In this document: positions 7,729-38,324 of the stretch, piece after piece
Layout: every line of letters starts with the position of its first letter
Position numbering within the stretch: position 1 is the first letter of the stretch
From: Calothrix sp. NIES-4105
GTDB lineage: Bacteria > Cyanobacteriota > Cyanobacteriia > Cyanobacteriales > Nostocaceae
Direction: 5' to 3'
DNA: 64,000 bases
Assembly: GCF_002368415.1 (NCBI RefSeq)
Contig: NZ_AP018292.1
Coordinates: 124,001 to 188,000 of the forward strand
The notes under the pieces: model-generated
Told to the model about the DNA's origin: nothing
Databases searched by the model: none
Seen by the model: only the letters and a program-made list of their open reading frames with translations
Program-made: the position numbers and the translations under genes

Positions 7729-8598
7729 ATGAATCAGGCAACGTTGGATGTATTGATTGAGGTAACAGACTTAAAGGAGCTTTCTTACGATGAACTGCAA
7801 GAACGCGAACACCTGGAAAAATTAGTAGAACGCGCGTTTTATGAAGCAGGAAAAGGACTACGTACCCTACGCGATAAAAAGCTGTATCGCAGTACTCACA
7901 ACAGTTTCGAGGAATACTGCAAGGAAAGATTTGGGTTTGAACGGCGCCAACCGTACCGTTTAATTGAAGCTGCGGGTGTAATAGATAACATAGTAGAAAT
8001 GTGTCCAAATTGGACACACTCTGAAAATGAAGAAGATTCAACACGTCCCAATTGGACACAGATTGTGCCAACGAACGAATGTCAAGTTCGACCATTAACC
8101 AAACTAGAACCCTCTGAACAACAGGAATGCTGGCGCCAAGCTGTTGAGAAGGCTGGTGGAAAAGTACCATCTGGGCGCCAAGTAAAAGACATAGTTGACC
8201 GAGTTCGCGAACGAACCAAAGTTCCGAATCCTTATCGTGAGGGAGAAATATGTATTCTTATCCCCAAGGACAATCCTGAGCTACGCGGTAAAAGTGGATG
8301 TTGGGGCATCGTTACTCGTGTAGGTGATTACTCTTGTACCATAGAAACTTGGGAATCGGAGTACACTGTAAAAATAGAGCATTTACTATCGTTGGAACTA
8401 AGCGATGATAATTGTAAATTCATGCGAGAATTACTTGGAAGAATGCGGCGCCTGCACCAATTACCAGATTGTGATGGAGCAGTAAATAGCTTGCTTACTT
8501 ACTTTGGCAAACAGTCGCAGCCGTATTTGACACCCATACAAGAAGAGTTACTTGCAACGATTGAGAAAAATTATGGAGTCGGAGAACCAAAACAGTAA
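7729..8598 (+). CDS. ParB-like cyanobacterial plasmid protein with internal operator (module A)
   Basis: This 289-residue protein has three parts. The N-terminal helical part contains [38 protein letters not shown]. Its middle resembles the ParB HTH region (QVRPLTKLEPSEQ, then [14 protein letters not shown]). An SH3-like part (RGKSGCWGIVTRV with TVKIEHL) and a C-terminal helical tail follow. It is 60% or so similar to the product at 37479-38324. The linker between the first two parts is coded by two GTGTCC-type palindromes (8001-8017 and 8043-8059). I know the architecture from many filamentous cyanobacteria but know of no proven function; DNA binding or partition is an inference. Confidence 0.75.
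   Translation: MNQATLDVLIEVTDLKELSYDELQEREHLEKLVERAFYEAGKGLRTLRDKKLYRSTHNSFEEYCKERFGFERRQPYRLIEAAGVIDNIVEMCPNWTHSENEEDSTRPNWTQIVPTNECQVRPLTKLEPSEQQECWRQAVEKAGGKVPSGRQVKDIVDRVRERTKVPNPYREGEICILIPKDNPELRGKSGCWGIVTRVGDYSCTIETWESEYTVKIEHLLSLELSDDNCKFMRELLGRMRRLHQLPDCDGAVNSLLTYFGKQSQPYLTPIQEELLATIEKNYGVGEPKQ
8001..8059. promoter_or_regulatory. Two GTGTCC-type palindromes inside the ParB-like gene
   Basis: GTGTCC-(AAATT)-GGACAC at 8001-8017 and aCGTCC-(CAATT)-GGACAC at 8043-8059 encode the protein pieces CPNWTH and PNWTQ. The same arms recur in intergenic regions at 2305, 3015, 55888 and 57639. Confidence 0.7.
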
Positions 8599-8788
8599 CT
8601 TATCAGAGGAAGAGCGCGCGGCAGCAGAGAAATTACATACTAGGCTGCGGCGCCTTTCTGAGGTTCCCAATATGGAAGGAGTTGTAATTTCAATGTTTGA
8701 ATTTTACGCACACTTACCAACGGCAAATTTGACACCAATACAGGAAGAATTATTAACTTTGATTGAGCAGAAGTACGGAGTTGGGTAG
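8573..8788 (+). CDS. Stand-alone copy of the ParB-like protein's C-terminal domain
   Basis: An ATG at 8573, overlapping the last 26 nt of the upstream gene in another frame, starts a 71-residue protein. Its body (TRLRRLSEVPNMEGVV then LTPIQEELLTLIEQKYGVG) repeats the tail of the 7729 protein (GRMRRLHQLPDCDGAV then LTPIQEELLATIEKNYGVG). It therefore arose by tandem duplication of that domain. The overlap suggests translational coupling. It could act as a dimerisation partner or competitor of the full-length protein, which is speculation. Confidence 0.65.
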   Translation: MESENQNSNLSEEERAAAEKLHTRLRRLSEVPNMEGVVISMFEFYAHLPTANLTPIQEELLTLIEQKYGVG

Positions 8789-8955
8789 AATTGAGGTTAA
8801 TTAAACCGGGAGCAAATCTAATCATTTGCTTTATAAACAAATGTACCTGTAGGAATTTTTTTAAGTAACTTGAATTTCTTTTGCATAAACTGAGATATTT
8901 GCTCCTACTAATATTTATAAAGGTTAATTGTTTGGCTTTACAATTCTTAACTACT

Positions 8956-37341: not shown

Positions 37342-37478
37342 CTGAATGAATTTCTAGGCGCCGGAAAATCACCGACCATTCCTTAGTTCTACAAACCGTG
37401 AACTGTGGAAGTGGCGCCTATACACAAACATATGTACTAAAAATTCTTGCCAACAGTTTGTATTGCAGCGAGGGCGTT

Positions 37479-38324
37479 ATGAGTGTTTCGGTTGAGTCTG
37501 TAACATTAGTCTATTTGAATAAACTTACCGAGAGTGAAGAACAACAACGGTTATGGCTTGAACGTAAAGTAGAACGCGCGTTTTATGAGGCAGGTAAAGC
37601 TTTAATGGAACTTAGAGATAAAAAGTTATATCGTTCTACCCATAAAACCTTTGAAGAGTACTGCCGTGATAGGTTTGGGCATAGCCGCCAAAAATCTTAC
37701 TACTTGATGGCGGCTGCCGATGTGTACGAAAATTTGTCAACAATTTGTTGTCAAAATGATTTAGATAAAGATTTGACAACTTTGGCGCCTGTTTTACCAA
37801 CGAGTGAAGGTCAAGTACGCGCGCTGTTTAAGTTAGAACCATTGGAACAAATCGAAGTTTGGGAGCAAGCAGTCCAAGAATCTGGTGGTAAAGTACCCTC
37901 TGGGCGCCAGGTAAAAGATATAGTGGAGAGAATTATGCAGCGAACAAAAGTACCAAATCCGTATCGTGAAAAAGAAATTTGTCAGTTAATCGCCAAAGAT
38001 AACCCCGACCTTAGAGGTAAAGCTGGATGCTGGTGCATTGTCCAAGAAGTTCACGAGTATAGCTGCACCGTTACTACTTGGAATGGTACATATACATTAA
38101 AAATTGACCATCTAAAATCATTCAACTACTTGGATTACCAATGTGAGGAAATACAATCTCTCCACAATCGCATCACTAAAATTATGAAAAACTTGGATTT
38201 AGAGGAAGCGGCTTGGAGCGCATTAAAGCAGTTGGGGGAGATTAGGCGCCCGTATTTAACCGACCTCGAAGAGACATTTTTATCTGCAATAGAAAAAAAA
38301 TATAACTCACCATTAGAGGTTTAG
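37479..38324 (+). CDS. ParB-like cyanobacterial plasmid protein with internal operator (module B)
   Basis: This encodes 281 residues from ATG 37479 (GAGGG upstream). It has the same architecture as the 7729 product: [74 protein letters not shown], and the SH3-like [18 protein letters not shown]. The linker between the first and second parts is coded by a TTGACAAC-type palindrome (37734-37754), at the position where the 7729 gene has its GTGTCC-type pair. It follows vapE by 137 nt. An earlier ATG at 37398 is less similar to the paralogue. Confidence 0.75.
37734..37754. promoter_or_regulatory. TTGACAAC-type palindrome inside the second ParB-like gene
   Basis: TTGtCAAC-(AATTT)-GTTGTCAA has one mismatch to the arms found upstream at 32811 and 34875-34940. 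A half-site TTGACAAC follows near 37773. It encodes part of the linker ICCQND. Confidence 0.7.

Follow-up and report, generated by a model that had tools for sequence, protein, structure and literature searches.

The window, by which we mean the whole stretch of 64,000 nucleotides analysed here, comprises bases 124001-188000 of a contig of 365,907 bp (NZ_AP018292.1, hereafter C3) in the 12.04-Mb, 8-contig genome of Calothrix sp. NIES-4105, and it carries two genes for ParT-like proteins that each contain, within their own coding sequence, a palindrome that is the candidate target of the encoded protein (coordinates are those of the window unless prefixed C1, C2 or C3, for contigs, and all sites are unstranded). 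Gene 1 (7729..8598, + strand, 289 amino acids, protein P0001) was classed as ParT-like from an AlphaFold2 model and an hhalign comparison to ParT; its product is laid out as a long N-terminal helix, a helix-turn-helix (HTH), a low-confidence linker, post-linker helices, a small beta domain and C-terminal helices. Gene 2 (37479..38324, + strand, 281 amino acids, protein P0002) encodes a protein that is 50% identical to it. The first-pass annotation of this DNA had placed a palindrome in the linker of both genes, and this was borne out: gene 1 contains TGTGTCCAAATTGGACACA (TGTGTCC-N5-GGACACA, putatively parS-like) at 8000..8018 and gene 2 contains TTTGTCAACAATTTGTTGTCAAA (TTTGTCAAC-AATTT-GTTGTCAAA, with one mismatch) at 37733..37755. 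It had also given gene 1 a second GTGTCC palindrome, and here only the right half is intact (8042..8060, about 42 bp from the first); with several mismatches in its left half it looks like a decayed copy. Gene 2 has an additional single half-site about 39 bp downstream of its site (around 37772). In gene 1 the recognition helix and the linker (residues 66-110; 7924..8058, + strand) form the predicted specificity cassette, the part that differs among relatives of unlike site type.

Besides fragments, the genome encodes five full-length paralogues, of which three lie on C3 and the other two on C1, a contig of 11.06 Mb; all five have a linker palindrome with a one-base centre behind the HTH, with arms that are different in each: TGTGTCC, TTTGtCAAC (one mismatch), ATGTGATC (in the paralogue at C3:61563-62444, outside the window), ATGTCCAC and ATGTGAAC. 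Matches at an expect value (E) <= 1e-10 were found in 74 of 118 genomes of the taxonomic family and in 38 of 386 genomes drawn from the phylum; one scan of sequence collections gave 244 relatives, the named ones mostly from Nostoc, Calothrix and their kin, and the protein family also occurs on plasmids of three phyla and on predicted viral contigs. Whether the linkers of homologues encode a palindrome had been put forward as a check, and the answer is far more general than the claim: 110 of 111 distinct full-length relatives have a palindrome in the linker whose arms measure 7 or more, and in 104 no palindrome elsewhere in the gene surpasses it. The single gene that lacks one lies on L242 (minus strand); L178, one of the 110, has an untypical repeat with a 4-base centre, so that with centres of at most 3 bases the count becomes 109/111. 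A linker palindrome was likewise found in 60 of 62 further genes from named genomes (best of the gene in 58), a set separated from the 111 only on the basis of exact DNA and in which some genes share a species. Some linkers contain several in-frame copies, up to nine in one gene, and the spacing between copies is 39 bp in 42 of 57 cases (87 genes of six types). We also noted a contig titled as a Crocinitomicaceae metagenome-assembled genome (L297) with a family gene of the cyanobacterial GTGTCC type, possibly through misbinning.

The types of site and the recognition helices sort almost one-to-one, for instance NRSRSYQL with TGTCCAC, RRQPYLL with TGTGATC, RRQPYHL with TGTGAAC, RR[QHY]PYRL with TGTGTCC, HRHVNYL with GGGAAC, RQKSNYL with TGACAAC and RDAAYLK with TGCCGAC. 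In a nearest-neighbour test on the seven recognition residues 72-78 the correct site type was assigned to 99.9 of 104 genes (96%), against 53.4/104 with N-terminal residues 20-65, 60.8/104 with the post-linker helices and 39.3/104 (38%) with the C-terminal domain, chance being 0.12. Three of the 111 genes (TGTGGT, TTAATG, CCAATG) have no site-type label, so that trees and code use 108, and the exclusion of singleton types from the nearest-neighbour test leaves 104. Near-identical site types were merged by hand, and eight genes of the GTCAAC/GTTAAC type were labelled by a helix start SRQK, by which gene 2 alone was assigned to the GACAAC group, a label that is circular for gene 2.

Selection acts on the DNA of the site itself. 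In 103 of the 111 genes, no more than 5 of 100 synonymous recodings of the linker produced a palindrome as good as the observed one. We compared third positions of codons for identical residues in 616 same-type pairs with an amino-acid identity of at most 80% (pairs that are not independent, with a contrast that is very large), and these agreed at 1621 of 1777 positions in the site (0.912), against 4614 of 8326 in the recognition helix (0.554) and 0.464-0.588 in other segments; by type the identity in the site ranged from 0.76 (GTGTCC) to 1.00. Site third positions are thus 91% identical versus 46-59% elsewhere, and the DNA itself is therefore under selection. We rejected a recent spread of the cassette as the cause of this conservation, since at third positions the recognition helix, which is part of that cassette, has diverged almost as far as the rest. 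Palindromic coding repeats are known in bacteria, and the sites might on that account be an inserted repeat, or else the product of chance or of an amino-acid constraint; the probability of this is close to nil, chance and constraint being ruled out by the synonymous null together with the third-position test, and a mobile palindromic element having been rejected on the lack of evident flank similarity among the extra sites, as judged by eye.

The recognition helix and the site are, to judge from the alignments, exchanged together across cyanobacteria as one block of about 135 bp. A tree built from the alignment that follows the linker (111 rows, 174 columns; a quick search that left 37 of 108 inner branches open) shows at least 57 changes of site type, against a mean of 75.7 (range 69-83) after shuffling. 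In 292 pairs of unlike type with an identity of at least 72% behind the linker, identity dropped to 0.33 at residues 71-75 and to 0.05-0.27 at residues 91-110 and was back at 0.75 at residue 111, while in 137 same-type pairs it was mostly 0.7-0.96 across the cassette, with 0.49 at 101-105; the swapped stretch thus covers residues ~66-110, or ~135 bp. The flanking segments predict site type better than the C-terminal domain does, which suggests that exchange tracts often extend past this core. A self-marking specificity cassette, as had been proposed for the two window genes, is upheld by the palindrome in 110 of 111 relatives, the pairing of helix and site and the swapping of the ~135-bp block, with binding taken as probable by analogy. 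As observations apart, an HTH-plus-site module was found fused to a DNA methylase (N6_N4_Mtase; L344, 9860-11005) and another to a protein annotated as DUF5131 (L356, 20001-21356).

By profile comparison the family is homologous to ParT of the Streptomyces plasmid SCP2, and the earlier label ParB-like was right in kind, the relative being a ParB-like protein without a cytidine triphosphatase (CTPase) domain (hhalign; PMC12260392). The cyanobacterial profile matched that of 14 ParA-linked proteins including SCP2.04c with an hhalign probability of 99.5 (E 4.1e-23) over residues 9-165; direct BLASTP to SCP2.04c, a protein found by tblastn from S. atratus (5e-17), gave 41% over 41 residues (E 1e-8). 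P0001 and P0002 were without a match to any family in Pfam, the CTPase (ParB N-terminal) domain included, as were the five paralogues in NCBIfam, and PHROGs gave weak matches only, the best being phrog_1733 at 1.6e-4. The AlphaFold2 model (mean predicted local distance difference test score, pLDDT, 82.6; predicted template modelling score 0.46; a low-confidence N-terminal coil) places only a long helix (20-49) and no CTPase-like domain ahead of the HTH helices (60-68 and 74-91), and a long N-domain helix is described for ParT as well (PMC12260392). The modelled linker (95-109) has a pLDDT below 50 and overlaps the site codons (residues 91-97). SCP2.04c contains an 18-bp repeat, TGTCTCCAATTGGAGACA, between the HTH and NEGQAREL, a place that matches that of the cyanobacterial site; the sections of PMC12260392 consulted do not print the letters of the SCP2 repeat, so equating the two rests on length and place.

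According to Sukhoverkov et al. 2025 (PMC12260392), SCP2 ParT binds an 18-bp inverted repeat inside the parT coding sequence as duplex DNA (by chromatin immunoprecipitation sequencing and biolayer interferometry), independently of cytidine triphosphate, loads and slides as a clamp free of nucleoside triphosphates and activates ParA; ParT homologues were counted in 21 cyanobacterial species. The binding of duplex DNA bears on the idea that the palindrome is an RNA hairpin in the mRNA (a stem with a loop of 4-5 nucleotides), e.g. an attenuator. The arms with their N4-N5 centre could pair, to go by their letters, but a hairpin would give no reason for the arms to track residues of the recognition helix and leaves isolated intergenic copies without a reason, so we hold this to be very improbable.

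In more distant relatives from plasmids of Streptomyces, Kitasatospora, Actinomadura, Emticicia and Spirosoma the gene immediately follows one of the ParA family, and parA is adjacent in all 14 plasmid relatives of the ParA-linked alignment, two of these neighbours being annotated only as AAA family ATPase. With a score of at least 7, a centre of at most 5 bases and a position 24-40 residues behind the HTH motif as the criterion, a repeat is present in 12 of 19 distant plasmid relatives, namely 10 of the 14 behind ParA and 2 of the 5 others (L356, L364); these 19 loci were hand-picked from three lists of matches, with 76, 79 and 139 records. Among viral-contig relatives 13 of 21 have one (some near duplicates; L336, L345 and L353 weak), with a third copy at +51 in L335. 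A comparison with named phages covered P0001 and four viral relatives; of these only L344 gave matches, to four Vibrio phage records and confined to residues 129-344, its methyltransferase-like part.

Taken together, each gene probably encodes a ParT-type, CTPase-less ParB-like protein with its own loading site (parS) in the codons of the linker that follows the recognition helix; by analogy to SCP2, the cyanobacterial proteins would bind these sites and would function in partition. Several observations weigh against this ParT-type reading. The C-terminal part of the model, a small beta domain plus helices, lies outside the ParT profile match, which ends at residue 165, and of 619 Foldseek matches in the PDB none reached E <= 0.001, the best 50 of them including no ParB. 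The repeat was not found in 7 of the 19 distant plasmid relatives (L357, L368, L373, L374; L362, L363, L365), that of L357 falling outside the searched stretch, at +69, nor in 8 of the 21 viral-contig relatives (L337-L340, L346, L352, L354, L355). No parA is adjacent to either window gene; a cyanobacterial ParA-like cluster, recognised by reading the sequence, lies at most 8 genes away in 9 of 99 loci, and 7 of these 9 also have a ParB-like gene. A 205-amino-acid frame with the ParA-like Walker motif KGGVAKTTT (C3:342250-342864, - strand) is the only PF13614 match on the contig, and it lies ~180 kb from the nearest full-length family gene if C3 is linear and ~85 kb if it is circular. Furthermore, co-resident paralogues show no avoidance of a shared site type (16 of 104 pairs against a shuffled mean of 13.3), so that a pressure of incompatibility is not visible.

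In the ParT-type scheme, following SCP2, a dimer would bind the inverted repeat and close as a clamp, and the closed clamp would then escape to neighbouring DNA and accumulate, so that the replicon that carries the gene becomes marked; a ParA acting in trans could then pull the marked replicon. Because the recognition helix and the site sit within ~135 bp, a single recombination tract would replace both and the address of the replicon would change in one step. It is possible, and we propose it tentatively, that replicons in this way carry exchangeable identity tags, a 135-bp module of helix plus target in which one gene conversion changes specificity and address together with no non-functional intermediate. 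If so, at least a dozen distinct codes have been generated, a plasmid may evade a relative that would interfere with it, and single genes spell out a natural code of recognition between protein and DNA.

Additional sites on the contig bear on the role of the protein. Intergenic ones of the GTGTCC type lie at 2304..2322 (no mismatches) and, with one mismatch each, at 3014..3032, 55888..55906 and 57639..57657; those of the TTGACAAC type at 32809..32831 (upstream of open reading frame (ORF) 32922), 34874..34896 and 34920..34942 (both upstream of the vapE-like gene at 35044) and 41345..41367; and those of the ATGTGATC type at 46268..46288, 50676..50696 and 50832..50852. A ATGTGAAC-type site with one mismatch (2238..2258) lies beside the GTGTCC site at 2304. 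The intergenic sites named in the first-pass annotation (2304, 3014, 32809, 34874 and 34920) all exist, and its list was incomplete, the sites at 41345, 55888 and 57639 having been overlooked. For the three types with a cognate gene on C3, 15 of 15 sites outside the genes are intergenic, and when ten half-site types are considered, this holds for 24 of the 25 that fall outside family genes; the coding fraction, for ORFs of at least 100 amino acids, is 0.658. All four perfect and three of the four one-mismatch GTGTCC sites of the genome (7/8) lie on C3, which holds 3% of the bases. Counting in-gene sites, C3 also has 5 of 5 ATGTGATC-type sites and 5 of 9 matches to TTTGACAAC with at most two mismatches (the rest on C1; three are TTTGATAAC variants), and C1 has 8 of 8 ATGTCCAC-type and 12 of 14 ATGTGAAC-type sites; only the bias to C3 is informative, because C1 holds 92% of the bases. 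At 2-3 mismatches, forward and reversed-pattern control matches numbered 16 vs 13 for GTGTCC (at most two mismatches), 22 vs 13 for TTTGACAAC, 16 vs 2 for ATGTGATC, 12 vs 1 for ATGTCCAC and 24 vs 3 for ATGTGAAC. The ATGTGAAC-type sites on C1 cluster at ~8.8-11.06 Mb and near 0.19 Mb. We also observed sites of the same form with GAGAAC, one mismatch each, at C3:46907, 98150, 99250 and 179945 (window 55945), a type absent among the five full-length paralogues despite these four sites.

The extra copies on this contig may be further loading or regulatory sites, and the main rival of the ParT-type reading is that the protein, alone or additionally, acts mainly as a transcription regulator, with the in-gene site serving negative autoregulation as a roadblock and the intergenic copies as operators of replication and other plasmid genes. 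The placement on C3 agrees with this, 22 of the 24 intergenic sites lying between tandem genes and TTGACAAC sites lying ~92-150 bp upstream of ORF 32922 and vapE, and so does a small gene, in gene 1's locus at 7347..7577 (- strand), whose product has weak HTH_31/Cro-C1-type Pfam matches (below cut-off) and which in 48 of 99 loci has a relative placed one gene upstream of the family member. However, no own-type site lies upstream of gene 1 between 3032 and 8000, several chromosomal sites lie between convergent genes, and the flanks of the loci gave only 5 further own-type sites over 91 label-locus cases (91 of 99 tested, two types left out; loci of 3.6-19.5 kb). In the 118 genomes, exact sites lay inside a listed family gene or at most 250 bp from one for 18 of 23 ATGTGATC, 16 of 39 TTGACAAC and 22 of 32 TGTGTCC sites, counts that are lower bounds since only the listing of family matches at E <= 1e-10 was used, with 0, 3 and 0 exact sites for the respective reversed controls; the share at a gene was 51 of 60 outside the window's genus versus 5 of 34 within it. 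In most cases, then, the principal site is the one inside the gene, and we consider a mainly regulatory role rather unlikely. More copies nearby, as had been claimed, and arms that match intergenic sites of the same replicon therefore hold for the window's contig and are not general.

Within the genus the picture is less favourable to the ParT-type reading. It has 21 exact TTGACAAC sites (in G000, G030, G076 and G115), none of them at a listed gene, and 18 of these lie in G030, G076 and G115, whose labelled genes are of other types; only G000 has a gene labelled as TTGACAAC type, so that the partner of some of these sites may be another protein. Many extragenic TTGACAAC sites of G030 and G115 have a GANTC centre (GAGTC, GACTC, GAATC) and not the in-gene CAATG/AAATT.

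Canonical ParB/Noc with parS resembles the present family in having an HTH protein with a palindromic site and a specificity that comes from few residues, and differs in having the ParB N-terminal CTPase domain. Some parS sites lie within parB genes, and one study reportedly addressed specificity switching in ParB/Noc; the canonical ParB site is not known to have a fixed place in the linker that follows the recognition helix. In phage immunity regions repressor and operators are exchanged as a block, so that protein and sites move together as they do here, but the operators flank the gene, whereas here the site is part of the coding sequence and exchange involves a unit of ~135 bp. KorB-type global regulators of plasmids are likewise ParB-like proteins with many sites on their own plasmid, unlike the present family, in which the in-gene site is usually the main one. 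With ParT/ParATS of SCP2 the cyanobacterial members share the homologous N-terminal and HTH region, the lack of a CTPase domain and the in-gene inverted repeat behind the HTH; unlike SCP2 ParT they end in a different C-terminal part, for the most part lack a neighbouring ParA, often occur as several paralogues in one genome and are spread over many site types.

An in-gene parS was already known for one ParT, and the sections of PMC12260392 consulted treat this one site and describe no family-wide site, helix-site code or swapping. As far as the open-access literature shows, in which we found no account of swapping or of an in-gene site throughout a family, the position across the family, the conservation at the DNA level, the helix-site code and the swapping of blocks are new, and the in-gene parS of one Streptomyces plasmid is extended to a family-wide principle. 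A new specificity needs a DNA-binding protein and its target to change together, and a coding module of ~135 bp permits this exchange at one stroke. Since almost all of the genes state their own site, the relatives supply paired helix and target data, a ready-made and testable HTH recognition code, as well as candidates for systems that partition or mark large plasmids of cyanobacteria.

Directly behind gene 1 lies the C-terminal remnant of another family member (8599..8788, + strand; 41% identity to residues 223-286, one stop), and further C-terminal remnants, some with stops, were found at C3:51113, 58617 and 259303, C1:7359359 and C2:339688, which suggests rapid turnover of family members. 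The module of gene 1 includes a DUF3987 protein (3064..6036, - strand), and a VapE-domain protein is encoded directly upstream of gene 2 (35044..37341, + strand). Elsewhere in the window we found a 999-amino-acid ORF (23987-26986, - strand) with an RNA_pol_Rpb1_5 match (E 4.5e-36), an RpoC2-like protein on a plasmid-sized contig, a protein with EAD1 and TRADD-like N-terminal domains in an effector-associated architecture (28236-29819, - strand), a SUKH/SMI1-KNR4 domain protein (32007-32606, + strand) and an RTX calcium-binding repeat protein (47383-48135, - strand). Finally, GGCGCC occurs 228 times in the whole window against 3.6 expected from base composition, and GCGATCGC (HIP1) occurs 0 times.

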